From contig JAFGIM010000058.1 of assembly GCA_016929605.1 (NCBI GenBank), positions 1 to 33,777 on the forward strand: a DNA stretch of 33,777 bases, given 5' to 3'. How positions within the stretch are numbered: the stretch's first letter is position 1; each line of letters starts with the position of its first letter. Of this stretch, positions 5,001 through 32,025 are shown in pieces. The DNA comes from Spirochaetales bacterium (GTDB lineage: Bacteria; Spirochaetota; Spirochaetia; Treponematales; Treponemataceae). The notes beneath the pieces are model-generated. The model saw only the letters and a program-made list of their open reading frames with translations. It had not been told where the DNA came from and made no database searches. The translations under genes and the position numbers were made by a program.

Positions 5001-5050
5001 CCATGAAGGCGCTCTTGCGCCTTAAGCGCGTGCGAAAAGGCTTGTTGCAT
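2033..5050 (-). CDS. M16C-family zinc metallopeptidase (presequence-protease/PreP-like)
   Basis: This is a large insulinase-superfamily peptidase of about 1005 residues, the size of the fused, clam-shell M16C enzymes that digest short unfolded peptides. The inverted zinc motif HILEH lies near residue 73-77 and the third zinc ligand is probably the Glu in RQEGHRF about 75 residues later. The C-terminal half is the usual inactive M16 repeat. There is no signal peptide, so a cytoplasmic site is likely. Two starts are possible: ATG at 5050, two nt after the stop of the FliG-like gene, or an in-frame GTG at 5062 that overlaps that stop. I prefer the ATG because its position is typical of translational coupling, but neither start has a strong Shine-Dalgarno. 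The natural substrate cannot be told from sequence. Confidence 0.93.
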   Translation of the reverse strand: MQQAFSHALKAQERLHGFVILSSEPLAEYKGVGIHARHEVTGLEVFHLLTDDEENLFSYSFITAPEDSTGVAHILEHSVLCGSRRYPLKDPFLVLAKQSVKTFLNAMTFPDKTVYPASSMVEADYFNLMRVYGDAVFFPLLDEWIFRQEGHRFEKASDGSVSIQGVVFNEMKGNYSSFDTIAADWSLKSILGSTIYAHDSGGDPADIPALTWKQFRDFHRTYYHPVNCKVFLSGNIPTERQLALLQEEFLCHFTSAPAPALVSPSSDTDWPKEFVVPAPSGDGQDLSLVTAQLNWLLPAVTDVVTYMEANLLTEILLGHDGSPLNRVLLESALGEDVAPSSGIETEVLHLCFSVGLRGMAKDDVPAFEQLVLDTLGDIAAHGVSSEELESAVRSIDFSNREVRRSGGPFSLTLMRRSLRGWIHGVGPYETLRVIPAFEEVKTRLANKSDYIQSLVRRFLLDNPRRARVVVYPDSQWIARMDERVDARVKLFESTLSGEEEQAFLSRQEDLFARQREADSEEQLALIPHLRRSDLPPVADSIPSRITTCGQVPIVLHEQPVNKIIYVDLAVPIDVIKTSDYPLLPFFSAVLTSMAVDGLSWVEASLLTARYTASLGAMLFSSQMVSGYQVPQSLEFVKGGRDFLMIRMKALEELSSEAISLMFRFFEKADFSDTKRLLDLLNEYRNDLESSLAPAGNQYAVSRAAAFASRTKAVDEIWNGLTQLRFIRELCAQAKDTKALVSLAERLTSIAQQLRSSGIVVNATAEATSMASLQAQLSPHLEGYDGPAPYTPDQKRASELYCCIEPEFSGSFRLLISSPLQVGFAAAVLPSVPYTHPDHPVEIVLGHWLSSGPLWERIRTTGGAYGAFSYPDSLEDLFVMATYRDPQPLASLAVFKEALEEASLHPIESKALDRIVTGAYSREIQPRSPSDKGFTAFIRLLYGITDEARKTKIAGILAVTPAELSACATRLLDSWPSVCQAVFAGEKMLKDGENDRFAGKVAKMTI

Positions 5051-5052
5051 AG

Positions 5053-6219
5053 TTATACCCACTTATCGCGATCGTCGCGACCTGAAATAAATAATTTTCC
5101 CTCCTCCCACGCCTTACGCATAGAAAGGAAAAAAACGGATGTAGCTGTATCGGCTTCCTGCCGTGAAACAGGATGAATAATTTTCTCTTCTTCCAAAATC
5201 ATCGCACCGCGCGTCTTGGACACCGCAGAGAGAATTTTCGTGCGGATTTCCTCGCTCTTACCTGCAAGTATCAAGGCGATATCTCGTTCGCCAAGAGAGC
5301 GAAGGTGCTCCTGAAGGAATTTATCGTCGGCCCTTACGATGTCATCCAAGGTAAATAGTCTATCGCGTATATCCCTGGCCAAATCCTGATCGTTATGAGA
5401 GAGGGCATCAAGAATACTCCGCTCGCCCTTTCCATCCATACGTCGCAGAATTTCTGCCAGGGCAAAACGACCGTCAATTGAATCAGAAGAGGCTGTATCG
5501 ATCGTTTCAATTTTTTCGCGCATTGCCGCATCCACACGGGCAACTGTATCAGGAGCAATGCCAGTTAGTTTTGCCAAACGAATAATCGTTTCTTTTTTTT
5601 CACTGTCGCCCATCAGATTGATTACCTGAGCTGCTTTCTTGCTTTTCATCTGGGAAAGAACCAAGGCCTTTACAGCAGGCAACTCATCGGTAATAAGACG
5701 ATAGATGCGATCCTCGTCCACATCCTCAAGGTAGTCAAATGGTTTTCCCTGTATAAACGGGACAGCCTTATGCAAAAGCGAATCGGCCCGCTCTTCGCCA
5801 AAAGCCTGGGTTAATATTGACCGGGCTGTATCTATTCCGCCGGTGGGCTCCCGGGCTTTTCGCAATAAGGACTCAAATTCAGCCAGAACAACAGTCGCTT
5901 CATCGCTATCCACTCTGCGAATTGAGGCAAGCTCAAGGGCAACCCGCTCCGTTTGCTCAGGACTTAGCCGAGAGACAACCTTGGCCGCTTCATCAACACC
6001 AATTAAAATAAGGAATTTGGCAACCTTTCGATAGGGATTTTCCTTGCCATGACTATCCTGAGATGTAGCTACCTTGATAAGGCCCGGAAGCTCGACAGAA
6101 GATGGTTTTTTGCTTTTATCCTCACTGTCAATGCGCTTTCCATCATCTTTCGCTTGCTGGTCTGTTTTATTAGAAGCGCTCCGATAGGCACCAAGACGTT
6201 TATCGTTCAAATTCATCAT
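5053..6219 (-). CDS. fliG1: FliG paralogue (FliG1-like flagellar switch protein)
   Basis: The 388-residue protein follows the FliG layout: a hydrophilic N-terminal extension (1-60) not usual in FliG, then FliG N-domain (about 62-125, RKVAKFLILIGVDEAAKVV), middle domain (about 135-245) and C-terminal domain (about 250-385, ALAEILRRMD then LDDIV). Known spirochaetes carry two FliG proteins: FliG2 in the main motor operon and FliG1 at a separate locus; in Borrelia FliG1 is reported at one cell pole and needed for normal motility. This copy is not among flagellar genes and has degenerate signature sites: the middle-domain EHPQ motif reads ELPA at 179-182, and the hinge GG reads DG near 249-250. 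It sits 4 nt behind the phospholipase-like gene and overlaps or abuts the M16 peptidase. Start is ATG 6219 or the adjacent ATG 6216. Confidence 0.85.
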   Translation of the reverse strand: MMNLNDKRLGAYRSASNKTDQQAKDDGKRIDSEDKSKKPSSVELPGLIKVATSQDSHGKENPYRKVAKFLILIGVDEAAKVVSRLSPEQTERVALELASIRRVDSDEATVVLAEFESLLRKAREPTGGIDTARSILTQAFGEERADSLLHKAVPFIQGKPFDYLEDVDEDRIYRLITDELPAVKALVLSQMKSKKAAQVINLMGDSEKKETIIRLAKLTGIAPDTVARVDAAMREKIETIDTASSDSIDGRFALAEILRRMDGKGERSILDALSHNDQDLARDIRDRLFTLDDIVRADDKFLQEHLRSLGERDIALILAGKSEEIRTKILSAVSKTRGAMILEEEKIIHPVSRQEADTATSVFFLSMRKAWEEGKLFISGRDDRDKWV

Positions 6220-6223
6220 CGCA

Positions 6224-7282
6224 TCATATCAGCTCGCCATCGGTGCGGTCAACTGAACCACACGATTGAAGCCACTCTTGTCGGGTTCTTACCTCTTGCA
6301 ATAAAGCCGATTCAAGCGGAAAAGGACGGCGATGGGAGGCAACGGCAATACTGCCATCGGGGCGCGCAATGGAAAGACAATCATTTGATATCAAATCGCC
6401 AAGGGATTCGCATGAAGAGGTTCCATCCAAAACCGAAGCAAACAGCTCGAGCGCGATTCGGGCATTCGACATCCCCTTTTCAAAAAGCTCGGGAACGCTT
6501 TCCCTTCTTGACAAACCGGACACTGGATCAGGCCACGGTGAGGAAGTGAGATTGAGATAATCGATGGATGTATCAAGGGCCACCGGGAACAATAAGGCAA
6601 CCCCGGAAGCCCCACGCGAGGCATAGGCTGCAATAGATCGGGGAAGTTCATGAGACGGAGCATTTGTTCTTGAAGGGTCGGTTAAAGCATAAAAATAATA
6701 GGTGTCTGCAAAGGCATTTTGAATTCTCTCATCCAGGTCTGCATCAGTAGCACTCTGGTCCGGGTATGTTTCCCGTAAACAGCGGCTAATCAATGCCACA
6801 ATACAGTCAATCGCAGCGGGGTCGGCGTAAAACACCTTGCGGGCATTAAAATGGACAACAGGGTGTTGTTCATACAATTCATAGAGTAATACATCCAGGA
6901 TACGTTCAAAAAAAGCGTGATACAAAGCAGGAGATACACCGCGCAACACCTGGTTGTCCTGGTTTGTTCCCGACCATGAAGGCGTTCGGCACACAATATA
7001 GGGATGCAAGGCCTTGTCCAGGGCTTGATGAGTCAAAAATCCGGAAAACCAGGAAAGAAGGACAGGGTCTTGGGTATCTCTAAGCAGGCGGGCGCACGAG
7101 ACACAGAAATCCCCATAGCCCCTGCGATGCAAAAGCCGTGCATACGACAGTGCAAAGGGTTTGGTCCTCCGGCCATGGGCAAAAACATCCGGCCCCTGAC
7201 ACCCCAAGGCGAAGGCTGGATCTGGCGAAGCATCATTGCGTGAACGCCACCCTCCAAGGACATGACATATTTGGGAAGGCAT
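6224..7282 (-). CDS. Zinc-dependent phospholipase C-like protein
   Basis: The 352 residues match the zinc-dependent phospholipase C/S1-P1 nuclease-like family seen in many Firmicutes and spirochaetes. Candidate metal ligands are His7 (ICHVLGG), Asp32 (GCQGPDVF), His36 and the helix with His85, Asp89 and His93 (FLTHQALDKALHPYI). There is no signal peptide, so a cytoplasmic or membrane-facing location is likely and the substrate is unknown. The C-terminal half (about 180-352) has no motif I recognise. The ATG lies 5 nt after the response-regulator stop with only a weak Shine-Dalgarno, which suggests translational coupling. Other members of this family are annotated only by homology, so the lipase activity is inference. 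Confidence 0.8.
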   Translation of the reverse strand: MPSQICHVLGGWRSRNDASPDPAFALGCQGPDVFAHGRRTKPFALSYARLLHRRGYGDFCVSCARLLRDTQDPVLLSWFSGFLTHQALDKALHPYIVCRTPSWSGTNQDNQVLRGVSPALYHAFFERILDVLLYELYEQHPVVHFNARKVFYADPAAIDCIVALISRCLRETYPDQSATDADLDERIQNAFADTYYFYALTDPSRTNAPSHELPRSIAAYASRGASGVALLFPVALDTSIDYLNLTSSPWPDPVSGLSRRESVPELFEKGMSNARIALELFASVLDGTSSCESLGDLISNDCLSIARPDGSIAVASHRRPFPLESALLQEVRTRQEWLQSCGSVDRTDGELI

Positions 7283-7287
7283 ACTCG

Positions 7288-8052
7288 TTACTCGGAAACA
7301 GACAGCGGAATGACCAAAGCCGAAACCGCCTGGGAATCAGGATTTCTGACGCCAAGAATCATAAACTGGTTATCACAACTAGAAGGCTTTAACACAGTTG
7401 CAAGCCGATCATCGTTAGTAACCCGGGACAACAAGGATATCAACTGTTCCCGAATTGGTGCAAAAAAAGAGACATCAGTGGATGATCCGTCGCTAGTGTA
7501 TACAAGACCGGCATCTGCTTTCCATGTTATTGAATGAGTCAGTCCTGCGTCCATAAAATTCTTAAGAACTTCGCAATTGTCTGATAATATACGATAACGC
7601 TCTTCTGCAAGTTCAGCCCGCTTTTCAAGCTTGTATTTGTACAAGACGGTATCAAGCGTTGTTGCAAGGCTGTCCGGATTGATGGGTTTTAATAAGTATC
7701 CGGCATAGGATATTTCTTTTGCACGAGCGAGCAAGGCAAGATCGGGACTTGATACACAAAACACTACAGGCGTTGAGGAACTCTTGTTAATCTCCCGGGC
7801 TGCATCAATGCCGTCAACACCGCCACCTATAGCCATATCAAGAAGAATAACGTCCGGTAAAAACCGACGAGCGGCGGCAACAGCGGCCTGACCATTATCA
7901 ACGATAGCCACGACATCATAGCCAAGCCGAGTTATCATCCCCTGTAAATCCAGGGCGACAATAGTATCATCCTCGGCTATAAGAACCTTAGTCCTGGCAT
8001 CCGAGGAAAGATCAGGAATATCGCTTGTGTCACTCATAAACCGGTCACTCAC
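7288..8052 (-). CDS. Response regulator: receiver domain plus uncharacterised C-terminal domain
   Basis: Residues 21-135 form a CheY-like receiver with acidic residues Glu27, Asp28 and Asp29, phospho-acceptor Asp72 (VILLDMAIGG) and conserved Lys122 (YLLKPI), so it should accept phosphate. A short linking helix (about 130-155) leads into a C-terminal stretch (155-254) that resembles no DNA-binding or enzymatic output domain I know; it might be a divergent PAS-like sensor. No histidine kinase lies in the window. The gene opens the minus-strand run toward clpB and is divergent from the tRNA-Pro. The first in-frame start is GTG 8052; ATG 8037 (five codons in) is an alternative. Neither has a good ribosome binding site. 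Confidence 0.85.
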   Translation of the reverse strand: MSDRFMSDTSDIPDLSSDARTKVLIAEDDTIVALDLQGMITRLGYDVVAIVDNGQAAVAAARRFLPDVILLDMAIGGGVDGIDAAREINKSSSTPVVFCVSSPDLALLARAKEISYAGYLLKPINPDSLATTLDTVLYKYKLEKRAELAEERYRILSDNCEVLKNFMDAGLTHSITWKADAGLVYTSDGSSTDVSFFAPIREQLISLLSRVTNDDRLATVLKPSSCDNQFMILGVRNPDSQAVSALVIPLSVSE

Positions 8053-9068: not shown

Positions 9069-10853
9069 TTACATTTTCCACCTTTCAATTATTTTTTCTG
9101 CACTCTCCGGTTTTCCATATAAATAACCCTGATGAAGAACGTGCGCGCGAGCGTTTAAAAATTCAGCTTGCAAGTGCGTTTCGACTCCCTCTGCAACTAC
9201 ACGGAGCTTTAACAGACTGGCAACAGCAAGAATTGCCTCAACCAGGGCCGCATCATTAGTGTCTGTCGGGGCATCCTGGACAAAGGATTTGTCTATTTTA
9301 AGTTCATGAATCGGTAAGCGTTTTAGATACGCCAAAGATGAATAGCCGGTGCCAAAATCATCAAGGGAAAATGATATGCCCAAGTCTACCAATTCATTCA
9401 TTTTTGCGACAATATCGGCCATATCTCCGATAAAAAGTCCTTCGGTAATCTCCAGGGTTAAACGATTTGGCTTTGCTCCACTTCGTTCCAACAGGTTCTT
9501 GACCCATAAGGTAAAATTTGTCTTTCTAAAGTGCCGCGGACTCATATTTACCGAAATATGTACCATTTGGCCGGCCTTATCGCAGCCAGCAATAATCCCG
9601 CAGGCCTGTGTTAATACCCATTTTCCCACTTCGATAATCAAATCCGATTGCTCTGCAATCGGAATAAAGGCGGCAGGCGAGAGCAAGCCTCGTGACGGGT
9701 GTTCCCAGCGGACCAGGGCTTCCGCAGCAACAATCGAACCTGCAGAGTCAACCTGAGGTTGTAAAAACAGACGTAATTGCCCATCTCGAATCGCATCCGC
9801 CAACTCTCGTTCAACCCGATAGTTCTCTGAGGCAGTTTCACCCATTTCCGGATCAAAAAATGCATATTGATTGCCGCCAGCATCTTTGGCACGGTGCAAG
9901 GCGGTATCGGCTCTTTTTAACGCCAGTTGTGGGGTATCATCATCGGTTATCGGTAATAAGGTAACACCAAAGCTCGCGGTTACCACAAAGGATTCATCCT
10001 CAATCAAAAAGGGACTTCGTAATGCGTCCCGGATTCGTTCGGTGATGATCATGGTAGTTAAACCTATTTGCTCGGAATTGGAATCATCAGAGGGGAGAAG
10101 CAGGGCAAACTCATCTGCGCTCATACGAGCGACGGTGTCAGCCTCTCTCATGATCGATTGAAGACGGGTTGCGACCGCAGTTAAAAGACTATCGCCTAAT
10201 TGATTACCCCGCGCGTCATTAATAACCTTAAACCGGTCAAGATTGAGTAAAACAAGTACATCTTTGCGGGGATACCGTTGAATAAAGGCAAGACGTTGCG
10301 ACAGCCGGTCAAGAAGAAGACTGCGATTTGGTAAGCCGGTAAGCACATCGTAGAAAGAAAGACGATACGCCTTGTCCTCTGCTTCTCGTTCGCGGGTAAT
10401 ATCTTCTTCCAAAAACACTACATGAGAAACTTCTTGCGATGTACGAATCGGGTATGCTGACACCCGATATACCTTGATCGGTCCCGTCTTTCCTTCTTCG
10501 GCAGGGTTATAGGTAAACTCCTGCTGTTCACAAATTGCCCCTTCAAGGACGGACATAAAAACATCCCGGATTCCAAGCCGTTTAACAATATCCATATCCA
10601 TAAAAGACATGGTGCTTGCGCTCTTGTCTTCTGGCACCCATCGCTTTTTAAAAGCGGGATTAACCAATACGGTGGAACCACTTCGGTCCAAAACGAGTAT
10701 GGCTTGGGGGATGTAATCAAAAACTGCGGTAGAGAGTGAACTTAGTTCAGTAGAATCTGTGGAGCCTGGTGTATCGTTCACATTGCAATCCTTATCTTCT
10801 CTAGGATTATCGTACGCGGAAGTAAAACTGTTTGATGTATCGTATTCGCTCAT
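9069..10853 (-). CDS. PAS-GGDEF-EAL protein, probable cyclic-di-GMP phosphodiesterase
   Basis: The 594-residue cytoplasmic protein has a PAS domain (about 38-155), a GGDEF domain (165-335, starting FYDVLTGLPNR) and an EAL domain (345-594). The GGDEF signature is degenerate, SADEF at 245-249, so cyclase activity is unlikely. The EAL domain looks intact: EALVRW at 388, LEITEG, LDDFGTGYSS, KIDKSF and AEGVET are all present. The likely reaction is hydrolysis of c-di-GMP to pGpG, with PAS and the dead GGDEF domain as sensors. The ATG overlaps the end of the lipoprotein gene by 47 nt and is preceded by GGAAAG at good spacing; the next in-frame Met is well inside the PAS domain, so the overlap seems genuine. 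Confidence 0.93.
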   Translation of the reverse strand: MSEYDTSNSFTSAYDNPREDKDCNVNDTPGSTDSTELSSLSTAVFDYIPQAILVLDRSGSTVLVNPAFKKRWVPEDKSASTMSFMDMDIVKRLGIRDVFMSVLEGAICEQQEFTYNPAEEGKTGPIKVYRVSAYPIRTSQEVSHVVFLEEDITREREAEDKAYRLSFYDVLTGLPNRSLLLDRLSQRLAFIQRYPRKDVLVLLNLDRFKVINDARGNQLGDSLLTAVATRLQSIMREADTVARMSADEFALLLPSDDSNSEQIGLTTMIITERIRDALRSPFLIEDESFVVTASFGVTLLPITDDDTPQLALKRADTALHRAKDAGGNQYAFFDPEMGETASENYRVERELADAIRDGQLRLFLQPQVDSAGSIVAAEALVRWEHPSRGLLSPAAFIPIAEQSDLIIEVGKWVLTQACGIIAGCDKAGQMVHISVNMSPRHFRKTNFTLWVKNLLERSGAKPNRLTLEITEGLFIGDMADIVAKMNELVDLGISFSLDDFGTGYSSLAYLKRLPIHELKIDKSFVQDAPTDTNDAALVEAILAVASLLKLRVVAEGVETHLQAEFLNARAHVLHQGYLYGKPESAEKIIERWKM

Positions 10854-12063
10854 CAGATTCTTTCCAGCGAACGCTGTCGGGAAAAACCGAAGTAACTGTT
10901 TCGTAGGCAGAAAGGGCCTTTCGAATATCCCTTAAGGGAGTATTTGCCTCATAAGCCTGTGCGCGCAAAAACCATCCTTCGTCCAAAGAGGCTCGGGCAA
11001 CGGTAAAAAAAGAATCCAGATACTCAAGGGCGCGCACAGAATCCGCCTGAGCTATGGCCTTCCGGGCTTCTTCCAGCAAGAGAAGCGGATCCTCTGTGGG
11101 AACCGGCACAGATCGTGCGGCCTCCTGCACCGGTGTGGTAACTGGCCGCAATTCAGGCTCATCGATCATTACTGAATGAACCGGATCTGGAGTCGTCTCT
11201 ACAATAGATGAGTCGGTCAAAGAGCGATAATCGGGGGCGCGTACCTTACCGGAGCGAATGTTTCCCGGCTCTTTAACCTGAACAGCAAGCAAATCCGATA
11301 CAAATGAATCGCCCAAGACATCGTAGCGAGAGAACTCAAGCAGGTATGAACCCTCCTTGAGCGCCCTAAAGGTAAACAAGGTATCATCGCCGTCTATTTT
11401 CCGTGTTTGATACGAAAGGCCATCCAGGGAGGAGGAATCGCCAAGATATACCCAGCCAGTGCCTGGATACCAAACCTCCAGCGAAAAATCCCGCGGAACA
11501 GTTACCTCGCGCGAAGCTTTTTTAACCGGGGTACTTTGTATTGTCGGACTAACTGAAGGCGGCAGACTCTCCTTCTCCCAAATACCTGCCTCCGGTGTTT
11601 CCAAAGGCTCTTGTGCAACATCAGGCTCAACTTCTGCAGTACCTTCAGGTTCTGCAGTACCTTCAGGTTCTGCTTCAGGTTTTGCTTCAGGTTCTTTTTT
11701 CCTTTCTATCTTAACTTCTTTGGGTAGTTCTTGAGGAGGATCTTGCACAGACTTACTGTCGTCTTGGGTGTGCATTGGCTCCGGGAGTAGTAAAGAAGGC
11801 TCGGGATAAAAATAGATAAAACCATCCGGTTCTTTCGGGTCCGCTATGTCGCCCGGGGAGACCTGTGGTACCTCAGAGGATATATTCTCTTCGGATTGAT
11901 CGCTAACAGATGCTTCACTCTCTTGAGCTTCCACCGCAGTTACAGTATGTTGCTCTTCCGCGGGCACTTCTTGCTCTGGTGTAGTCGCTGGTCCTGTAGA
12001 GGTACAGGATACATACAAAAAAAACACACACGTGAAGCAAAGCGAGAGAACTGTTTTAGTCAT
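10807..12063 (-). CDS. Probable lipoprotein with Pro/Glu repeat region and C-terminal helical repeats
   Basis: The N-terminus (MTKTVLSLCFTCVFFLYVSC) is a lipoprotein signal with the acceptor Cys at 20; the lipobox is relaxed, as is usual in spirochaetes. Residues 25-180 are low-complexity and rich in Pro, Glu and Ala, with two PEGTAE copies and shorter PEAE/PEAK units. Residues 180-270 look like a beta-rich domain with several Tyr and Trp residues. Residues 315-418 are alpha-helical and tetratricopeptide-like (EEARKAIAQADSVRALEYL). It is probably anchored to a membrane and spans periplasmic space. I recognise no named family. It overlaps the upstream one-TM gene by ATGA and the downstream PAS-GGDEF-EAL gene by 47 nt. 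Confidence 0.82.
   Translation of the reverse strand: MTKTVLSLCFTCVFFLYVSCTSTGPATTPEQEVPAEEQHTVTAVEAQESEASVSDQSEENISSEVPQVSPGDIADPKEPDGFIYFYPEPSLLLPEPMHTQDDSKSVQDPPQELPKEVKIERKKEPEAKPEAEPEGTAEPEGTAEVEPDVAQEPLETPEAGIWEKESLPPSVSPTIQSTPVKKASREVTVPRDFSLEVWYPGTGWVYLGDSSSLDGLSYQTRKIDGDDTLFTFRALKEGSYLLEFSRYDVLGDSFVSDLLAVQVKEPGNIRSGKVRAPDYRSLTDSSIVETTPDPVHSVMIDEPELRPVTTPVQEAARSVPVPTEDPLLLLEEARKAIAQADSVRALEYLDSFFTVARASLDEGWFLRAQAYEANTPLRDIRKALSAYETVTSVFPDSVRWKESDERIRYIKQFYFRVR
11632..11691. repeat. In-frame tandem repeat in the lipoprotein gene (two 18-bp and two 12-bp units)
   Basis: On the plus strand TTCTGCAGTACCTTCAGG occurs twice in tandem (11632-11667) and is followed by two 12-bp shortened units, TTCTGCTTCAGG and TTTTGCTTCAGG (11668-11691). 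The unit lengths are multiples of three, so gain or loss of copies keeps frame. They encode PEGTAE and PEAE/PEAK in the flexible linker. Confidence 0.9.
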
Positions 12064-12428
12064 GGAACAGACTCCAATAACGCGTCAATCTGTCGACAGG
12101 CTTCTGAGCCAACAGCGGCAACATCCTGCTCATTGATTTCACTATACCACAGATTCTGCTCTTGTGGTCCCCATTGCTTTTTTTGAGCACGAGAAAACTG
12201 AATTCCCGGAAGAGGTAAAGGATCCGGTAAAAGCCATACGTCTGTCACCGGAACCCGTTGCGAACGAAGCTGTTCCTGTTCAATACGCATCTGGCTTTTT
12301 TGTTGTGAAGAAACTGATATTTGAAAAATCAACATCCCGATAAAAATCAATAAAAGTGCCGACAAAACAATAACACACCTTTTTTTGTGTGTTTCAAAAA
12401 AATTCGTCAGCGCTTCAAGTTGACTCAT
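12060..12428 (-). CDS. Hypothetical one-TM protein, 122 aa
   Basis: No family recognised. A short charged N-terminus (1-17) is followed by one strongly hydrophobic segment (about 18-39, CVIVLSALLLIFIGMLIFQI) and a hydrophilic tail of about 80 residues, predicted outside the cytoplasm. The layout resembles small divisome or envelope proteins such as FtsL/FtsB in outline only; the tail is Pro- and Gln-rich and lacks a clear leucine zipper. Its ATG overlaps the smc stop by one nt and its stop overlaps the lipoprotein ATG, so it is translationally coupled on both sides and almost surely expressed. Confidence 0.75.
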   Translation of the reverse strand: MSQLEALTNFFETHKKRCVIVLSALLLIFIGMLIFQISVSSQQKSQMRIEQEQLRSQRVPVTDVWLLPDPLPLPGIQFSRAQKKQWGPQEQNLWYSEINEQDVAAVGSEACRQIDALLESVP

Positions 12429-15370
12429 TATGCTTCTGATTCTCCACTGTCAGCTGTATTGTTCTCCTCCACCTCGGCATTTTTTATGCGTTTGGGAGGG
12501 TGTGGCGGAATAACGATGTTTTCTTCAAGGGGAACATCTTCTTCCTCAAAGTTTTCAAGATCAGAGGTCGTCTCAACGATTCTGTCAGATTCATTTTCGA
12601 GTTTAATTGCGATAACCTTGGTAACACCGGATTCTTCCATGGTAACACCAAGCATAGTTCCCGCACCCATTACGGTCTTCTTGTTATGGGTAATAACGAT
12701 ATACTGACTTACGTTGGCAAATTCCCTCAGGGCATTAACAAAGCGGGTAACGTTTTGCTCGTCAAGAGCCGCGTCAATCTCGTCCAACAGACAAAAGGGA
12801 GAGGGCTTAACCATATAGGTTGCAAACAAAAGCGCTACAGCAGTCATTGACTTTTCGCCACCGGAGAGCAGACTAATGTTTTCAAGCCTTTTTCCCGGAG
12901 GCTGGGCAAAAATATCAACCCCGGACTCAAGTACATTTTGGGGATCAACAAGGCGAATTTCGCCTCGACCGCCACCAAAAAGACGCCTGAACATATTATG
13001 AAAGTTCTTTTTAATCTTGTTATAGGTAGCAAGGAACATCTCTGTAGACTCAGCTCTAATTTCCTCGGTAATACGTTTAAGATCATCGCGCGCTTTTTGA
13101 AGATCAGCAATCTGCGACGTCAAGAAATCATAGCGTTCTTTTGCTTCAGCGAATTCCTCCACTGCCATCAAGTTTACACTTCCCAGGTCCCGTAAGGCAG
13201 AACGGGATGAAGCGAGCTTTTCCCTGAGTTCTCCAGCGGGTGTATTGATGGTAAACATACGCTCTTCAAATTCCATCAAATCCCGTGAATGGGTTTCCCT
13301 GAAGTTTTCCATGATATTTCTAATCTCGGTTTCGGTCATCGCAAGATCCATGTGAATCTTTTCTAACTGACTTTGAATCTTTCCCATTTCGGCGGTTCGG
13401 TCTTTTAACCGTGACTGCTTACTCGACACATCAGTGTTCCGGCTTGAAATGTCCTGTTCAAGTTTCTCCAGTTCAGAGGTCAGGGTTCGACCGCGATGCT
13501 CGATGGAAGCAAGTTCTCCTTCAATCTCGTCAATCTGTTCAAGAATATCTTCCAACCGCTTTTGCTCGGTAAAAAGCTCGTTTTCCAGCTCGCGAAGAGC
13601 CGCCTCCTGCGAGGCAAGCTCTCTTCGGATTAACCTTGCCTGCTCTTCTGCGGCTTCGCCCTGAGTCTTCATCTGCACACGGTTAAGGCGCAAATCCTCA
13701 AGAGTCTTGCGATATTCCTCGATCTTGACAACAAGATCGGTGTTTACCGCTTTAAGGGTGGCAATCTTTTCGCGGCGAACAGAAATCCCTTCCCTGTTTT
13801 CCTGAATCTTTGCATCAATGCTTCGCTTTCGCGTAATAATACCCTCGGGAGAAAGGAACTCATCAATAAAGCCAGGGGATGTAGTGCGATAGGAATTAAG
13901 CGCATTCTCGAGTTTGCCAGACAGTTCATGCAATTCGGAAAAACTGGCAACCGCGCTTTCTGCGAATCGCTTGGTATCATCTCGCGAAGGATCATGTAAT
14001 TGAGCAAAGTCCGAAAAAATATTTTTCTTTCCCGAAACAAGAATCTTGATTTGAGAAACGATTGAGGAGAGAGCCTCGTCTGCTTCGCTGTGGGCACGCG
14101 AAGAATAACCGGCATCCCTCAAACGCTGATCAAGTTCAGTAACGATATCCTCAGTAATTGCGCGAAGCTCACTCTCCATTATTTCGCGCTCACGATCGCA
14201 AGAGTCTATCTCCGATTCAAGTATGGCACCCTGCCGATCGTTTTCGGATATGCGGTTTCCTGCTAATTCAATATTCTGCTCAAAAGAGGAGATATTTTTT
14301 TCAATCTCGGCAAGCCGTTTGTTCAGATCACGAACTAATTCATCTTGCCCATCTGCGTCTTCTCGAAGACTTTCAACCCTGTTTTCTATCGCGGTTTTTC
14401 TGCCCTCAAGCTGGGCTAATTTTGATTTAACCTCATTGTGACGCTCAACCAATAAATGGGACTGTTTATCTTTTTCGTTCTTTTCTACAGCAAGTCCATA
14501 TATTTGTTTTTGATAGTCAACAAGCCGCTCTTCCATGGAGTTCACCACATCCATGTTTTCTTCGAGCGAGGCGTTAATCTCGTCTATCTCTGCCTGTACC
14601 CTGGAACGCTTTGTCTGTATATCCGAGATATCCTGACTTCGTCTGTCCTTGTCTTGCGTAAAACCCTTAAGTCGCAACAATTGAATATCAAGCTCATTTT
14701 CAAATATTGCTTCGCGCAATGTACGATACTTTACGGTTTTATCCGCCTGAATTTTAAGGGTGTCGTACGATCGCTTAACCTCGCCAAGTATCCCCTCAAT
14801 CTGTCGCATGTTTTCTTCGGTTTTGGAAAGCTTTCGCTCTGCCTCGGCTCCGCGAACCTTAAACCGGGTAATCCCTGCCGCTTCTTCAAAAATGTACCGG
14901 CGCTCTTCGGGTTTACTAGAAAGAATCTGATCGATCTTTCCCTGCTCCATGACTGAATAGGCGGCCTTACCAACACCGGTATCCCAAAATAGTTCGCGTA
15001 TATCTTTAAGCTTTACCGGCGTATTGTTGATGTAGTATTCGCTTTCTCCTGAACGATACAAGCGGCGTTTAATGGCAATCTCACTGACATCCAGATTTAA
15101 CAGTCCAGCCTCATTCGCAATAGTCAGCGTTACCTCGGCAACATTGAGCGGCTTCCGCGATTCCGTTCCGTTAAAGATAACGTCTTCCATTTTGTCGGCT
15201 CGCATAGCCTTGGAGGCCTGTTCACCGAGTACCCATTTTACCGCATCGACGACGTTACTCTTTCCACAGCCATTTGGACCGAGCAAGGCGGTTATCCCGT
15301 CGGAAAACTGGATGTGGGTTCTGTCGGCGAAGGATTTAAAACCGAATATATCAAGACTTTTAAGAAACAC
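12428..15370 (-). CDS. smc: Chromosome segregation ATPase SMC (short form without a recognisable hinge)
   Basis: SMC forms a long coiled-coil ATPase dimer that organises and segregates the nucleoid with ScpA and ScpB. The N-terminal head has the FGFKSFAD start and Walker A GPNGCGKSN (31-39); the C-terminal head has the signature LLSGGEKS (about 834) and Walker B FCLLDEIDAALD (859-870). Coiled coil fills about 170-410 and 520-780. The protein is 980 residues, shorter than the usual 1150-1200, and the central region (about 410-520) does not show the glycine-rich hinge pattern. A Glu-rich tail of about 50 residues follows the head. The start is GTG 15370, fixed by the family N-terminus and by AAGGGG upstream. 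ScpA and ScpB are not in the window. Confidence 0.95.
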   Translation of the reverse strand: MFLKSLDIFGFKSFADRTHIQFSDGITALLGPNGCGKSNVVDAVKWVLGEQASKAMRADKMEDVIFNGTESRKPLNVAEVTLTIANEAGLLNLDVSEIAIKRRLYRSGESEYYINNTPVKLKDIRELFWDTGVGKAAYSVMEQGKIDQILSSKPEERRYIFEEAAGITRFKVRGAEAERKLSKTEENMRQIEGILGEVKRSYDTLKIQADKTVKYRTLREAIFENELDIQLLRLKGFTQDKDRRSQDISDIQTKRSRVQAEIDEINASLEENMDVVNSMEERLVDYQKQIYGLAVEKNEKDKQSHLLVERHNEVKSKLAQLEGRKTAIENRVESLREDADGQDELVRDLNKRLAEIEKNISSFEQNIELAGNRISENDRQGAILESEIDSCDREREIMESELRAITEDIVTELDQRLRDAGYSSRAHSEADEALSSIVSQIKILVSGKKNIFSDFAQLHDPSRDDTKRFAESAVASFSELHELSGKLENALNSYRTTSPGFIDEFLSPEGIITRKRSIDAKIQENREGISVRREKIATLKAVNTDLVVKIEEYRKTLEDLRLNRVQMKTQGEAAEEQARLIRRELASQEAALRELENELFTEQKRLEDILEQIDEIEGELASIEHRGRTLTSELEKLEQDISSRNTDVSSKQSRLKDRTAEMGKIQSQLEKIHMDLAMTETEIRNIMENFRETHSRDLMEFEERMFTINTPAGELREKLASSRSALRDLGSVNLMAVEEFAEAKERYDFLTSQIADLQKARDDLKRITEEIRAESTEMFLATYNKIKKNFHNMFRRLFGGGRGEIRLVDPQNVLESGVDIFAQPPGKRLENISLLSGGEKSMTAVALLFATYMVKPSPFCLLDEIDAALDEQNVTRFVNALREFANVSQYIVITHNKKTVMGAGTMLGVTMEESGVTKVIAIKLENESDRIVETTSDLENFEEEDVPLEENIVIPPHPPKRIKNAEVEENNTADSGESEA

Positions 15371-15541: not shown

Positions 15542-16252
15542 ATGGCTGAAACACTGGTACTTTTCTCGTCGGATACTCCCGGCGAAAGCCAGATAAGCCG
15601 TTCACTGCGTAGGGCCGGATACACCGTGAAAAGGGTGCACACCCTTTCAGCTCTGCATACGATTGCGTATTCCTTCACGGTTTTAGCGGTTATCCTTAAC
15701 CGCACAATCATCGAGCGATACTGTCTGGAACCAATCAAACATCTCAAACGAGCGAGAAGCGCATGCGCCATCATTAGCTGGCATTCGGGATTGTATCATC
15801 CAGAGGTCGACAGCGTAAGTGTCTTATGCGAATACTCCACCAATGGCTGGACCCAAGAGCGACGGATAGAAGAACTCGACCACGTGGTAAAAATCATAGA
15901 AAACCCCGAAAAAGATGAGGTCCAGGGGGACTTATTTGTTACTGATGAAACAACCCGATATGGAAAAAGAGGACTTGTTACAGAAACAGATATTCCCTTG
16001 GAGAAAACGCATAAAAAAATGCGCAAGGTATATGAATTACTGGTGGATGCAGGCTCAAAAGGAATCAGCGTTGAAGATTTATCAATACGATTATGGGGAA
16101 GAAATGCACAGATCAAACGGGACGACCTTCAAAGCTATATGAGCAAACTGCGCAAATTACTAACTGAGGCCTCTGGTGGAAAGCGAACGATTGCAAGAAA
16201 AGGAGAAACCTACCGTATTAGCCCCATACACAACGAGACGGCAGAGCAATAA
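15542..16252 (+). CDS. Winged-helix regulator with a degenerate (pseudo-)receiver domain
   Basis: The 236-residue protein has a receiver-like N-terminus (3-115) and an OmpR/PhoB-type winged helix at the C-terminus (about 150-230: IRLWGR, then LQSYMSKLRKLL, then a Gly-Glu-Thr-Tyr wing). The acidic pair of a true receiver is replaced by Ser9-Ser10 before Asp11, and the phospho-acceptor position reads Asn53 (VILNRT), so phosphorylation in the normal way is unlikely. The linker (115-150) is acidic and Thr-rich. It probably binds DNA and may act on the flanking divergent smc operon or on chemotaxis genes, but no target is shown. It stands alone on the plus strand between two minus-strand operons. 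The ribosome binding site is weak. Confidence 0.78.
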   Translation: MAETLVLFSSDTPGESQISRSLRRAGYTVKRVHTLSALHTIAYSFTVLAVILNRTIIERYCLEPIKHLKRARSACAIISWHSGLYHPEVDSVSVLCEYSTNGWTQERRIEELDHVVKIIENPEKDEVQGDLFVTDETTRYGKRGLVTETDIPLEKTHKKMRKVYELLVDAGSKGISVEDLSIRLWGRNAQIKRDDLQSYMSKLRKLLTEASGGKRTIARKGETYRISPIHNETAEQ

Positions 16253-16277
16253 AAAAGGAGGGCGTATCAGCCCTCCT
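16251..16277 (-). terminator. Intrinsic terminator of the chemotaxis operon
   Basis: Read on the minus strand, an 8-bp stem (AGGAGGGC/GCCCTCCT, arms 16256-16263 and 16270-16277, 6-nt loop) is followed by six T residues (16251-16256 complement). It starts 8 nt after the cheY stop. Its T run overlaps the stop codon of the convergent winged-helix gene. On the plus strand the stem is followed only by a mixed TG/CT sequence, so plus-strand termination would be weaker. Confidence 0.85.
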
Positions 16278-16285
16278 GTGCACTC

Positions 16286-16723
16286 TTATTTACCAAGTAC
16301 GGTAGAAATTCGCTCAAGCACCTTCTTGCGATCAAGTGGCTTGACGATATAATTTTTAGCTCCAAGGAGAAGCGCTTTTTTTACGAGCTCTTCCTTACCA
16401 AGGGCGCTAATCATTACAATCTTGGCATTTTTATCAAAGGCCATTATCTGCTCAAGGGCGGTAATTCCATCCATCTTGGGCATGGTTATATCCATGGTTA
16501 CCAAATCGATATTCGGACAGAGTTCCTTATATTTCTCAACTCCATCAAGACCATCGGTTGCAGTGGTAACAACCTCGTAGCCTTCACTGGTCAAAATCTG
16601 ACCAATTTGTTTGGCGACGAACATAGAATCGTCTACAACCAGTACGCGGTACGGTGTGCCGTCCGCCTTTAAACCCTCGGGGGGCCGTTCATTGATCGCC
16701 GGAAAATCTTGTTTAGATATCAT
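16286..16723 (-). CDS. cheY: Chemotaxis response regulator CheY
   Basis: CheY takes phosphate from CheA and binds the flagellar switch to set rotation sense. The receiver is complete: Asp31-Asp32, phospho-acceptor Asp78 (LVTMDITMP), Ser106 at the Thr position and Lys128 (YIVKP). A 24-residue N-terminal extension precedes the domain, as in treponemal CheY. The start is set by GGGGAG 8 nt upstream of ATG 16723. It is the last gene of cheA-cheWR-cheX-cheY, 17 nt after cheX, and is followed by a terminator. There is no CheZ; CheX should dephosphorylate it. Confidence 0.97.
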   Translation of the reverse strand: MISKQDFPAINERPPEGLKADGTPYRVLVVDDSMFVAKQIGQILTSEGYEVVTTATDGLDGVEKYKELCPNIDLVTMDITMPKMDGITALEQIMAFDKNAKIVMISALGKEELVKKALLLGAKNYIVKPLDRKKVLERISTVLGK

Positions 16724-16740
16724 ACACTCACTCCCCTTCT

Positions 16741-17205
16741 TTACATGCGGTCACGTATCGCTACGTTTACTTCTACCTTACCCTGATCTGTTTCCATTGG
16801 AACAATCAGAGCCTCTACTTCATGATCAGAAATCTCCATATTGTCTCCGGTAAACAGAGCCGGAGGCGTTAAATCAAAACGGAAACCCAGATCGTGCAGT
16901 TTTGTTACGGCCTGTGCGGTAATCAAATTGGCAAGTTCGGTTATAGTCGCCTTTGCCAAATCGTCAAAGGTCTGTAGTTGCTCGCCGTTCATTTGGGAAG
17001 CAATCTTCATCGCTGAATCCAAGCTCATGTCAAAGATAACTCGACCTTCAACATCACCTGCCAAACCAACAAGGGCAGCCACACCCATAACAGGCATGGA
17101 CGTTGATTTCAGATACAATTCACCTCGTTTGATCTCGCCACCCAACACCTCTGTCAAGATGTTATACGCAGCTTCCACAAACGGATTAATATACTCTACA
17201 CGCAT
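16741..17205 (-). CDS. cheX: CheY-P phosphatase CheX
   Basis: CheX is the phosphatase that removes phosphate from CheY in spirochaetes and some other bacteria lacking CheZ. The 154-residue protein has the CheC/CheX/FliY-type fold pattern and the single catalytic pair Glu90 and Asn93 in TELANLIT, matching the E-x-x-N motif of Borrelia CheX. It has one such helix, not two as in CheC. The ribosome binding site AAGGAGAG is well placed before ATG 17205. It lies between cheWR and cheY, the classic spirochaete order. Confidence 0.96.
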   Translation of the reverse strand: MRVEYINPFVEAAYNILTEVLGGEIKRGELYLKSTSMPVMGVAALVGLAGDVEGRVIFDMSLDSAMKIASQMNGEQLQTFDDLAKATITELANLITAQAVTKLHDLGFRFDLTPPALFTGDNMEISDHEVEALIVPMETDQGKVEVNVAIRDRM

Positions 17206-17233
17206 TGGTCTCTCCTTCTATTATGATGCTCAA

Positions 17234-18583
17234 TCACTCTTTGCTGAAAGCCACAATATCTCCGCGAACGGCTCGCAACCATCCGCTATGCTGAGGCATA
17301 GCCTCGTTCTTGCCAAGAATTACAAAGCCATTATCCTTAAGTTTTTCTGTAATCTCACCCAAAATAGTAGCCTGTTGCTTGGGATTAAGGAACGAAACCA
17401 TGTCCCGGGCAACAACAATATCCATAGCAGGTACTGCATTTTGATTATTACAATCGTGATATTCAAAAAGGATCATATCCTTAATGGTTTGATTAAATGT
17501 CCATTGCCCATTAACACCCTTTACCATGTAGGATAGATAGCGGGGAGGTATTGCTTCCTCGTTAACGGAAAGCATGGGGGCATTGGAAATAGCAAGAAGA
17601 TCGGAGTCATTAGCGTAAATACGTATCCGTGCGGAGGGATATTTTTCCCTTAAGATAACCGCCAGGCTATACGCCTCGTACCCCTTGCCGCATCCGATGT
17701 TCCATACATTGATTTGTTTAGCCTGATTTTCCGGAAGCATGGAGGCAAAAGAGCTCGCATAGGCGCTGCTCCAAAAAGTTCCGGTATCCGGAGAATAGAA
17801 GGTTTCAAGGTACTGCCGCGCGTCCTGCTCGTTCGCAAGTTGGATATCACTCTGGGAGCGCAGGTCACGCCAAACTCTAAAGCGCTCGGACACCCATTGT
17901 TCATTAACTGCGGTAACATGAAAACGGGCAAGAGCGGCAAGGGTATCGCTGATAAAGGAAATATCAAGATCATCTCGGGTTTGTTTTACCTTGACCTTAC
18001 CTGGAGCCTCTACAAGACGCTCTTCCATCATCTCTGCCATCTCGGAAGCCGGGGTATCGGCTTGCTTGTCGCGAGAGGCAAAAATTCGCTCAACATCAAG
18101 AAGGATGTACAGGCGACCCTGGTTTTCTACCACACCATGAATGTATTTAATATTGATATCGCCAAAGATGGGGTGTGGTGGCTGTATGGAGTTTCGGGAA
18201 ATACCCACCACCTTATCTATCGCGTCAACGACTACACCAAAGGTTTGCTCTCCAACATGAATAATAATCATGCTTTCCAGAGCATCTTCAGCGCGTTCAC
18301 GGGTGGGAATATTAAAGAAAATACGTAAATCAATGATGGGAATAATATCGCCACGAAGGTTATACACACCTAACACAAACGGAGAGGTGTTGGGGACGTA
18401 GGTAAAACGTCCTGCCTTGGCGATTTCCTTAACTTGCATGATGTCGATGGCATAATCTTTCCCGGCAAGGGAAAAGGTAACCATCTTGAAATCAATGACA
18501 ACTGCCTTTTCGGCGCGTACTTCGCTTTCTTCCCGTTCAGTATCTTCGTTTACCAGGGTTCGCGTTTCTTTTTTATTTACCAT
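17234..18583 (-). CDS. cheW: CheW with C-terminal CheR-like domain
   Basis: The 449-residue protein joins two chemotaxis modules. Residues 30-170 are a CheW adaptor domain (FSLAGKDYAIDIMQVKEI, then VYNLRGDIIPIIDLR) that links receptors to CheA. Residues 205-449 resemble the CheR methyltransferase: a SAM-site-like NIGCGKGYEAYSLA at 296-309, YANDSD at 323-328 and VVARDMVSFLN in place of the CheR CRNV-I-YF strand. The FFR-type segment reads FWS at 270-272, so a normally catalytic arginine appears missing. A CheW-CheR-like fusion is known in Treponema, where it is part of an unusual receptor array. The start ATG overlaps the cheA stop by 7 nt. Methyltransferase activity should not be assumed. Confidence 0.94.
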   Translation of the reverse strand: MVNKKETRTLVNEDTEREESEVRAEKAVVIDFKMVTFSLAGKDYAIDIMQVKEIAKAGRFTYVPNTSPFVLGVYNLRGDIIPIIDLRIFFNIPTRERAEDALESMIIIHVGEQTFGVVVDAIDKVVGISRNSIQPPHPIFGDINIKYIHGVVENQGRLYILLDVERIFASRDKQADTPASEMAEMMEERLVEAPGKVKVKQTRDDLDISFISDTLAALARFHVTAVNEQWVSERFRVWRDLRSQSDIQLANEQDARQYLETFYSPDTGTFWSSAYASSFASMLPENQAKQINVWNIGCGKGYEAYSLAVILREKYPSARIRIYANDSDLLAISNAPMLSVNEEAIPPRYLSYMVKGVNGQWTFNQTIKDMILFEYHDCNNQNAVPAMDIVVARDMVSFLNPKQQATILGEITEKLKDNGFVILGKNEAMPQHSGWLRAVRGDIVAFSKE

Positions 18584-20952
18584 ACTGAAGCCTCACGTTG
18601 TTCGCGCGCCTGCAACTCCTGTTTAAGTCCAAGATCCAGAAGCTGACTAACGTCTATGATGAGGGATACTGAACCGTCTCCCAAAATCGAGGCACCGGCA
18701 ATACCGGGCGAATTGGTAAACTGATCCCGAAGAGGCTTTATTACCACATCCTCTTCTCCAATAAGACTGTCGACCATCAAACCAATTTTTTTCTCGCTTG
18801 TTCCTACGATAACAATATAGTTAAACTCGGAAACATCCTGTGTCTTTATGCCAAAAAGTCGGTTAAGACGCAAGAGGCTGATTACCTCGTTACGAACATT
18901 AAAGACTTCATAGTTATCGATACGACTAATCTCTTCCGGCTTGACACGATGGCTTTCGATAACAGAGGTAATTGGTATGGAGTACACCTCGCGGCCAACG
19001 CGCACCAGAAGCCCCTGGATTATGGCAAGGGTAAGTGGCAAACGGATAACAAAACGTGATCCGATGTTAGGTTGACTTGAAATAGTGACAGTTCCGTTGA
19101 GTTTCTCGATATGGGTTTTTACTACATCGAGGCCAACTCCGCGACCGGATACATTGGTAATCTTCTCGGCTGTGGAAAAACCAGGTTCAAAAATAAGCTG
19201 AAAGGCTTCCACATCGGTAAGGTTTTTACCAGGATGTATGATGCCGCGAGCGACTGCCTTTTTCTTGACCGATTCAACATCGATTCCATGACCGTCATCG
19301 GCTATTTCGATAACAATCATGTTGCCTTCGTTGCTAGCCTTGAGCAAGACCATACCTTCCTCGGATTTACCGGCAGCAGCCCTGACAGAGGGAAGCTCAA
19401 CGCCATGGTCAATTGCATTGCGCACACAGTGCATAATGGGATCAAGCAAGTCTTCTACAACGGATTTATCGAGCTCGGTATCCTCTCCTTCTATGACCAG
19501 ACGAACCTGCTTGCCCAAGTCATGTGATAAATCACGGACAAGGCGCGGGAAGCGGTTAAATATCTGGCTGATGGGAACCATGCGGATCTTCATTACGCCT
19601 TCCTGCAATTCACCGGTAATTCTACCGAGGTTTTGCGCGGCGGAGCGGAATTTACTGACGGTACCCTTCATAGAGGAATCAAAACCACCAAAAACCTCAA
19701 AAAGACCATTATATTCGGCCATTAATTCTTTCTTGATATCCTTAACGCTTCGACCATCCTGAATCTGTTCAAGCAAATCCGGAATAGAATCAAGCAGGGC
19801 TCTCAGTCGTTCCTTCCAAGCCCCCTCGGCTTGCTGAAACTCGGATATAAGATCGCTAAAATGCAAGGCGCTTTGATTAAAGGAAGCCTTGGTAATAACC
19901 GTTTCGCTCACCAGATTAAGCAAATAATCGATTCTACGGGAATCAACTCGAAGAATAGAGCCTGAACTATTATGGGATACCGTAGATGCGCTCTTTGACG
20001 GTGTTTTCTCCGATAGTTCCGTCATTGCCTTTGGCTCGCCGACGCTCTCTTCCTCGTCTACTTCAACTGGCGATTCCTCTTTACGGGAAACTACCGGCCC
20101 CGCCGGCTTTGGCGCTGGTGCACTTCGTTGTGGTTGTGCCTGAGCCATAAAAGGCTGCACATCCACCGAACTGGTAACGTCGGAAATAGAAGAGGCTTTT
20201 TTAAGATCCTCGCTTGAAACAGTGGTTGCCACAAAATACACAACATGTTCGTGGAATTCATCCTCGTAGAGGGCATCAAAATCCGGAATAGTCTTTAACA
20301 CCTGACCGTGTTGCTTAAGAGCGGCAAAAACCTGAATTCCACCAACGGAATTCATGGGGTTAGACTCATCGAAGGTAACCCGCACAATAAAGACACTTTC
20401 ACCCGGAGGAACAGCTTCTTTAAGCTCAAGGATCTCATACTCTGATAACAGAGCCGTTGTATCTGCAGAAGGAACCATCTCGACTGTTCCAGGAGCGACT
20501 GAAGATGGTGCAGGAACTTTTTTCTTGGCTGCTGCAGGCTTTTGCTTCTTCTCTTTTGAGGGAAGCAGGGCTTCAATAGCCTCTTTTACCGGGGAAACAT
20601 CATCATCAAACACAGCACCGGCAGACCTGGCAGACAACATTGCCTTGATGATGTCCAAGGCCTGTAGAAGAATATCCACAACAGAGCCGGAAACGGCAAG
20701 AGAACCGGAGCGAATCACATCGAGTAAGTCTTCTACAATATGCGTAAAACCCGACAGTTCGTGCATTTCGACGGTAGCAGAGCCACCCTTAAGGGTATGC
20801 GCAGCTCTAAAAATCTCGTCGATAGCCTCATGATTGGATGGATCATTTTCTATAACCAGGATATTGCTTTCCAGCGTGAAAACCTGCTGTTCAGCCTCAC
20901 TGAAAAAGTCTTTTAGTAGTTCCTCATTGTTGATATCCAGATAGTCACTCAT
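18577..20952 (-). CDS. cheA: Chemotaxis histidine kinase CheA
   Basis: CheA is the receptor-coupled kinase that phosphorylates CheY. Domains: P1 phosphotransfer (1-110) with His52 in AAHTLKGGSA; a P2-like region (about 170-265); an acidic linker; P3 dimerisation (about 330-450); P4 ATPase (450-640) with N box HCVRNAIDHG at 508-517, G1 ADDGHGID near 551-558 and G2 GRGVGLD at 603-609; P5 CheW-like (640-785). P3 is longer than in E. coli because of an inserted helical stretch (about 373-428), as described for Treponema CheA. The four genes cheA-cheWR-cheX-cheY run together to the terminator at 16251. The ATG has no Shine-Dalgarno and lies only a few nt from a candidate promoter. Confidence 0.97.
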   Translation of the reverse strand: MSDYLDINNEELLKDFFSEAEQQVFTLESNILVIENDPSNHEAIDEIFRAAHTLKGGSATVEMHELSGFTHIVEDLLDVIRSGSLAVSGSVVDILLQALDIIKAMLSARSAGAVFDDDVSPVKEAIEALLPSKEKKQKPAAAKKKVPAPSSVAPGTVEMVPSADTTALLSEYEILELKEAVPPGESVFIVRVTFDESNPMNSVGGIQVFAALKQHGQVLKTIPDFDALYEDEFHEHVVYFVATTVSSEDLKKASSISDVTSSVDVQPFMAQAQPQRSAPAPKPAGPVVSRKEESPVEVDEEESVGEPKAMTELSEKTPSKSASTVSHNSSGSILRVDSRRIDYLLNLVSETVITKASFNQSALHFSDLISEFQQAEGAWKERLRALLDSIPDLLEQIQDGRSVKDIKKELMAEYNGLFEVFGGFDSSMKGTVSKFRSAAQNLGRITGELQEGVMKIRMVPISQIFNRFPRLVRDLSHDLGKQVRLVIEGEDTELDKSVVEDLLDPIMHCVRNAIDHGVELPSVRAAAGKSEEGMVLLKASNEGNMIVIEIADDGHGIDVESVKKKAVARGIIHPGKNLTDVEAFQLIFEPGFSTAEKITNVSGRGVGLDVVKTHIEKLNGTVTISSQPNIGSRFVIRLPLTLAIIQGLLVRVGREVYSIPITSVIESHRVKPEEISRIDNYEVFNVRNEVISLLRLNRLFGIKTQDVSEFNYIVIVGTSEKKIGLMVDSLIGEEDVVIKPLRDQFTNSPGIAGASILGDGSVSLIIDVSQLLDLGLKQELQAREQREASVW

Positions 20953-30381: not shown

Positions 30382-30411
30382 GCTGGAACCTCCATTGATT
30401 CTGTGTCTCTC

Positions 30412-31506: not shown

Positions 31507-31523
31507 GTGTATCTCCCCTGCCC

Positions 31524-32015: not shown

Positions 32016-32025
32016 GAGATACTCC

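Follow-up and report, generated by a model that had tools for sequence, protein, structure and literature searches.

The smc gene and its product

The present analysis concerns a 33,777-nucleotide stretch of DNA from a Spirochaetales bacterium of the Treponemataceae (GenBank assembly GCA_016929605.1, contig JAFGIM010000058.1, positions 1 to 33,777), hereafter the window, and within it a gene for a structural maintenance of chromosomes (SMC) protein in which no hinge domain can be recognised. An earlier note on this DNA, made from the sequence alone, had placed a 980-residue frame at positions 12428-15370 with no strand given; the frame is present and lies on the minus strand, with a GTG start at 15370 and a stop at 12428-12430, and frame 1 of the plus strand contains many stops over the same interval. 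The whole protein (P0001) matched TIGR02168 with 851.7 bits (E = 9e-256, cut-off 567.35), which identifies it as a bacterial chromosomal Smc, and it matched Pfam SMC_N with E = 2e-72, both head halves and the long arms being present as the note had described. The closest solved structures are head constructs of bacterial Smc, and in a tree built from the heads the protein grouped with named Treponemataceae, adjoining Brucepastera (98/85); the phylum assignment to Spirochaetota is taken from such named relatives. The motif GPNGCGKSN in the N-terminal head half is presumably Walker A, and we take the C-terminal half to carry the motif LLSGGEKS and, in FCLLDEIDAALDE, Walker B. Cysteines occur at positions 35, 391 and 860 only.

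The genome from which the window comes measures 2.16 Mb at 78 percent completeness. It contains a single full-length copy of smc, and the genes for ScpA (G000:C9:12275-12910) and ScpB (G000:C9:11707-12183) lie next to each other on another contig. Across 100 genomes, ScpA was found in 91 and ScpB in 90. DUF4194, which we take to be MksE/JetB, was found in 7/100 genomes, so that a general back-up condensin was not apparent from this search, which a lone MksB as in Borrelia would escape. The features of the gene are collected in Table 1.

Table 1. Features of the smc gene (window coordinates; residues of the 980-aa protein).
Feature	Residues	Position	Strand	Basis
smc, chromosomal condensin Smc, 980 aa		12428..15370	-	open frame and TIGR02168
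N-terminal ATPase head half, holds GPNGCGKSN	1-170	14861..15370	-	
N-terminal arm, same length in 81/81 aligned close relatives	171-419	14114..14860	-	model from residue 330
Joint, first half; G421 and Y422 invariant in 81/81 close relatives, not phylum-wide	420-423	14102..14113	-	
Apex helix A, low conservation	424-456	14003..14101	-	both models and alignment
Tip loop, length variable	457-462	13985..14002	-	both models and alignment
Apex helix B, low conservation	463-497	13880..13984	-	both models and alignment
Joint, second half (SPGFIDEFLSPEGIITRKR...)	498-522	13805..13879	-	conservation
C-terminal arm (775 is our own anchor)	523-775	13046..13804	-	model to residue 619
C-terminal ATPase head half, holds LLSGGEKS and FCLLDEIDAALDE	776-928	12587..13045	-	
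C-terminal tail, low conservation	929-980	12431..12586	-	alignment entropy

Predicted structure of the centre

The SMC hinge profile PF06470 was not among the 24 Pfam matches of this Smc at E ≤ 10, in line with the claim of the earlier note that the central hinge is missing. The centre was modelled with AlphaFold2 as residues 330-620 with an alignment of the 80 named relatives (model 1) and as residues 394-537 alone (model 2). The two models had a mean predicted local distance difference test score (pLDDT) of 91.3 and 90.5, respectively, contained zero strands, and agreed on the element boundaries within one residue. In model 1 the arm helix runs to residue 419 and is followed by a turn at 420-423, helix A (424-456), a loop (457-462), helix B (463-497), a short helix at 501-505, a turn at 506-510 and the second arm helix from 511 onwards. 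Approximately 91 residues are thus predicted to separate the arms, comprising a joint (GYS ... FIDEFLSPEGIITRKR) and a variable two-helix hairpin. The pLDDT was lower at the joint, with block means of 77-79 and 73 in model 1 and 81 in model 2. A canonical hinge, that is an alpha/beta fold of some 150-200 residues, was predicted in neither of these confident, strand-free models of about 91 inter-arm residues, residues 410-520 included. The note called these central residues, about 100 by its count, non-coiled, whereas the models predict helices there, with 424-456 and 463-497 forming the hairpin.

In structure comparison, Foldseek matched model 1 best to segments of coiled coil in Pyrococcus Smc (E = 5.1e-4), the elbow of MukB and B. 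subtilis Smc, and the apex model alone to nothing below E = 0.32. The VIA-align rows for the apex model were tied at Z values of 9.4 to 10.1 and covered many unrelated helical chains, reflecting a common helical arrangement only. Canonical hinge domains were absent among the best 50 rows of each Foldseek or VIA-align list, which as listed rows cannot exclude them; the sole hinge entry among the listed fold rows, 4rsi_B, includes extended coils. Using VIA-align, the hairpin alone fitted other hairpins at 1.1-2.6 Å over 70-78 residues, and the arms plus hairpin fitted other chains only at 5.9-10.3 Å over 127-138 residues. Because the hairpin superposes well on its own and poorly together with the arms, we read the joint as kinked, a reading taken from superposition figures rather than from coordinates. 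Helical-wheel analysis of helices A and B did not discriminate between a two-helix and a four-helix arrangement. The net charge of residues 420-522 was slightly negative (median -2 in 81 sequences), which bears only suggestively on the question of a hinge channel.

Conservation of the joint and variability of the apex

Conservation was assessed in a set of 81 sequences (the window protein and 80 named close relatives) and in a 68-row phylum alignment, in which P0001 and 10 of these named relatives were joined by three further loci and by 54 chains from outside the order. In the 81-sequence set, the joint showed a mean entropy of 0.28 bits at residues 420-423 and 0.80 bits at residues 498-522, a degree of conservation similar to that of the two head halves at 0.45 and 0.50 bits (mean top-residue frequency 0.88 and 0.87); the arms had 1.46 and 1.35 bits. 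Helices A and B were the most variable helices, with 1.96 and 2.30 bits, respectively, and the length of the apex ranged from 63 to 109 residues. Eleven joint residues, G421, Y422, F501, F505, P508, G510, I511, T513, K515, R516 and D519, were invariant in 81/81 sequences. The motif CXXC occurred in the chain centre of none of the 81 close relatives and of 1/68 phylum rows.

With a threshold of E<1e-3, a profile of the apex generated from the 81 sequences recognised 18/54 chains from outside the order and 0/54 reversed controls (best reversed E = 0.002), each of the 18 matches lying where the apex was expected. Upon iteration, 44/54 chains were recognised, likewise without exception at that place, though reversed controls then passed as well. 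Visual inspection shows the second joint half in distant families too, as FNPEGIIQTKKRIE, LFDKEGTYMQKEAID and YSEEGTYTQKERIQ.

Arm lengths

The arms come in a few fixed lengths while the apex varies. Among the 81 close relatives, the N-side arm (residue 170 to 419) spanned 249 residues in all sequences and the C-side arm (G510 to 775) spanned 265 residues in 80/81. The count was extended to 66 chains, comprising P0001, 10 named relatives and 55 other phylum chains after removal of the duplicates L131 and L135, in which the C-side distance was 260-266 residues in 50 and exactly 339 in eight; the remaining eight chains had distances of 240 (three chains, all from family f5), 285, 291, 375, 381 and 384. 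The eight chains with the 339-residue distance formed one group on the head tree (100/98), adjoining family f35 (99/96). For other SMC proteins, arm-length modes at 238, 341 and 515 are described in PMC5344682, as is a B. subtilis Smc with shortened arms that becomes functional again at 253-267 aa. With our anchors, the arms of the present Smc measure approximately 250-260 residues each, near this shorter functional window of B. subtilis, the agreement being only rough because the anchors differ.

Distribution across Spirochaetota

Matches to PF06470 at E ≤ 0.001 were obtained in 1/145 genomes of the window's family and 1/198 genomes of the phylum, the same genome (G052) in both cases. The lone gene bearing the match in G052 encodes Wadjet JetC1 (PDLC00519, E = 3.8e-161) and not Smc. 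This locus, L032 (G052:C27:20049-23306), thus has a hinge that the profile can recognise although its genome belongs to the same family as the window, and the match shows that the profile search works in these genomes. None of ten Smc proteins from ten other families matched the profile at E ≤ 1 in a Pfam scan. In a control run, 10/14 genomes were positive, those missed being E. coli, Caulobacter, Bacteroides ihuae and Sulfolobus.

Among the matches listed, Smc was found in 143/145 family genomes (G058 and G038 being without a match), of which six had only weak matches with E between 1e-5 and 1e-3 (G011, G017, G040, G055, G061 and G062), leaving 137 convincing orthologues, a few of them broken by contig ends or a frameshift. 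These orthologues rule out an assembly artefact or a deletion as the source of the hinge absence. At the phylum level, again among the matches listed, 191/198 genomes had an Smc match, that of G225 being weak (7.6e-4), and a TIGR02168 recheck of 43 genomes left eight with weak listed matches only (G267, G281, G308, G155, G157, G196, G254 and G225), attributable to loss, missing contigs or strong divergence. Sixty phylum loci were fetched, and six (L158, L164, L175, L193, L201 and L202) were dropped for lack of a full-length single-frame chain, giving the 54 chains from outside the order, which ranged from 817 to 1104 aa. The comparison with other spirochaete SMC proteins proposed in the note places the trait across the phylum, with an invariant joint shared by the close relatives. 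The lack of a recognisable hinge is phylum-wide in the sampled Spirochaetota rather than a local oddity, a scope much wider than first thought.

Two genomes of family f5, taken here to be Borrelia-like (G267 and G308, 98-99 percent complete) had weak TIGR02168 matches only among the matches listed, and three of the same genus (G216, G238 and G243) had an 817-residue Smc; loss or strong divergence of Smc is possible in some f5 species. In family f17, smc appears broken at G222:C8:2296285-2299085 and G269:C1:2117326-2120128, with an N-terminal match containing several stops and an open C-terminal part, due to sequencing error, a frameshift or a real interruption. At L211 (G108:C58:13900-17100), the split in smc immediately follows the joint and stems from one frameshift adjacent to a poly-A tract, in all likelihood an error of assembly.

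Discussion

The explanation that we regard as probable is that this protein belongs to an Smc-ScpAB condensin in which a small helical apex, presumed to serve dimerisation, stands in for the former hinge toroid, with loop extrusion kept and hinge-gate bypass lost. The Smc would be the chromosomal condensin of the Treponemataceae bacterium, partnered by ScpA and ScpB, and in Spirochaetota a small all-helical apex would have taken the place of the alpha/beta hinge toroid. The two arms are predicted to meet at the joint, from which the variable two-helix hairpin would project. Dimerisation is the likeliest role of the apex, and the candidate surfaces are the invariant joint or the paired hairpins, so that two apices may pair either through their hairpins, forming a four-helix bundle, or through their joints. 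Apices paired in this way would close the ring and could support ATP-driven loop extrusion and DNA entrapment as in other Smc-ScpAB. The hinge channel for single-stranded linkers would be missing, and large obstacles would therefore have to be threaded or avoided. The alternatives put forward in the note, a different mode of dimerisation or a minimal, undescribed hinge, gain support from the lack of a hinge match in this Smc and the sampled Smc proteins and from the strand-free models.

The present Smc resembles the canonical Smc-ScpAB of B. subtilis in its head sequence, its antiparallel arms, its ScpA and ScpB partners and its presence as one full-length copy in its own genome, and differs from it in having a helical apex of approximately 91 residues in place of a recognisable alpha/beta hinge and arms of about 250-260 residues by our anchors, compared with 344 in B. 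subtilis as given in PMC5344682. A hinge-less SMC from marine Actinobacteria was described as new biology in 2025 (PMC12153180). By its description it is likewise of SMC lineage and has neither a hinge nor a CXXC motif; the actinobacterial protein is presented as a small divergent clade from ocean sequencing, whereas the trait reported here belongs to the Smc of the sampled Spirochaetota. MukB, the JetC of Wadjet II/III and Acetobacter Smc share with the spirochaete Smc the expectation of no hinge channel. According to PMC12647877, these proteins keep a hinge and tend to longer arms, and the larger lumen is suggested to compensate for the missing channel; the models of the spirochaete Smc, by contrast, show no hinge fold, and 50/66 chains have arms of the short class. 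The MukB family was not among the Pfam matches of this Smc at E ≤ 10, although HMMER filtering can discard weak hits and the fold lists leave room for a MukB-type hinge. The zinc hooks of Rad50 and of archaeal ASRP (PMC9389158 for ASRP) also represent a non-hinge device at the arm tip, from which the present proteins differ in the CXXC counts given above; a zinc hook was ruled out, as no CXXC occurs in the 81 close relatives.

Engineered proteins offer the nearest functional parallels. B. subtilis Smc carrying a Rad50 zinc hook in place of its hinge, Smc(Zh), is reported to support normal growth on rich medium (PMC5344682), and a Wadjet core without the elbow-to-hinge part, ecJET(core), is reported still to cleave DNA, taken as extrusion, if the ring is closed, with no obstacle bypass (PMC12647877). 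In both constructs the hinge was swapped or removed and core activity was kept, as is proposed here; Smc(Zh) and ecJET(core) are laboratory constructs, whereas the spirochaete swap would be natural, with heads and tuned arms kept and a small helical apex added. The purpose of the hinge has recently been proposed to be that of a gate for obstacle bypass (PMC12647877). SMC proteins are defined in part by their hinge. The sampled Spirochaetota provide a natural experiment on the functions that need the toroid, and with no recognisable hinge and mostly short arms they look like a large counter-example to the link between channel loss and longer arms. No description of a hinge-less spirochaete SMC was found in the literature searched, as judged mostly by title, start of abstract and term counts. 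SMC surveys that start from a hinge alignment, as that of PMC5344682 did, could miss these proteins, and we infer that the trait may have gone unremarked so far for this reason.

Extended to the phylum, the proposal would be that the ancestor of the sampled Spirochaetota swapped the hinge toroid for an all-helical dimerisation apex at a kinked joint, yielding a natural "core-only" condensin that extrudes loops without a hinge gate. We advance this ancestral replacement tentatively, as plausible and somewhat short of probable, and rate it lower in view of the lack of phylum-wide conservation at residues 420-423 of the joint. If it is true, an SMC protein can lose its hinge channel without lengthening its arms in compensation, and the missing arm alignment in Borrelia chromosomes would be easier to explain. 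In Borrelia, ParB is reported to recruit Smc, which supports origin segregation (PMC9712426), and the chromosomes are described as lacking arm alignment, with an Smc called canonical and a missing ScpB proposed as a possible reason (PMC10406323); our results suggest the missing hinge as a second possible reason beside ScpB.

Several results weigh against a conserved dimerisation apex. The sequence of the hairpin is poorly conserved. In the phylum alignment, the entropy of residues 420-423 was 3.14 bits, above that of the arms (2.81 bits), so that this part of the joint is unconserved at this depth, and residues 498-522 were moderate at 2.31 bits, with 1.45 and 1.58 bits for the heads. The iterated apex profile also passed reversed controls (5, 8 and 6 of 54 in three later rounds, down to E = 2.3e-6), which indicates that its scores are inflated by helical composition and that the deeper homology leans on position more than on score; 10/54 chains remained unmatched by the apex profile, namely three from f5, three from f35, and L176, L177, L192 and L199. 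The structure models cover this protein alone, with its 80 close relatives. The sole f5 genome in the ScpAB searches, G216, was without ScpA or ScpB at E ≤ 0.001. Finally, PF06470 misses the Caulobacter control, which has an Smc, and profile absence alone therefore proves little.

This last point, together with the restriction of the models to one protein, also counts in favour of a normal hinge that has kept its alpha/beta toroid and diverged beyond recognition by the Pfam profile. With some 91 residues between the arms, two confident models free of strands, and coiled coils, hairpins and other helical chains filling the best 50 rows of each Foldseek and VIA-align list, a divergent canonical hinge is very unlikely and was discarded for reasons of size and of predicted structure. 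A hinge supplied in trans by a separate protein deserves almost no weight, as no supporting point was found and PF06470 is absent at E ≤ 0.001 from the window's own genome, at its 78 percent completeness, and from 144/145 family genomes, in a search that a hinge protein missed by the profile would escape. It is also highly improbable that Smc is decaying and that another condensin has taken over its work. Borrelia burgdorferi is described as having MksB, without MksE or MksF, besides Smc (PMC10406323), a situation to which the DUF4194 search is blind, but the heads are strongly conserved, arm length is fixed, DUF4194 is rare and Smc is matched, among the matches listed, in nearly all of the phylum genomes (191/198).

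The apex might alternatively not dimerise at all, the two Smc chains being joined only by their ATP-engaged heads and ScpA, with the hairpin as a free tip or bound to another protein or to DNA. The variable hairpin sequence, the wide range of apex lengths (63 to 109 residues) and the Borrelia chromosomes that show no arm alignment despite Smc (PMC10406323) are compatible with this arrangement. It nevertheless seems unlikely in view of the eleven invariant joint positions in the 81 close relatives, the report that a Wadjet core with its ring opened at the top stops working (PMC12647877) and the conservation of ScpAB, which argues for a ring. We therefore retain a dimerising helical apex as the preferred explanation.

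Neighbouring genes in the window

Downstream of smc, positions 10807-12428 (minus strand) encode two proteins, of 122 and 418 aa, neither with a Pfam match at E = 0.001; the frame of the 122-aa protein overlaps the smc stop by one base. Of the 80 named loci, 73 extend at least 600 bases and 60 at least 1800 bases past smc; a relative of the 122-aa gene follows smc in 10 of the 80, and one of the 418-aa gene does so in 35, with no evident link to Smc function in these loci. Upstream of smc, positions 15542-20952 hold a protein with a weak C-terminal regulator match followed by a chemotaxis cluster (receiver domain, CheX, CheR-CheW fusion and CheA-like kinase). Positions 2033-8052 (minus strand) encode an M16C/PreP-like peptidase, a receiver-domain protein and two less certain products: one matches zinc-dependent phospholipase C only marginally, and the other resembles FliG but scores 195.5 where the NCBIfam cut-off is 226.7. 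On the same strand, positions 27026-33294 contain a thiamine pyrophosphate enzyme, members of the dihydroxy-acid dehydratase and isocitrate/isopropylmalate dehydrogenase families and two aconitase-family pieces, which together look like a cluster for branched-chain amino acid synthesis.

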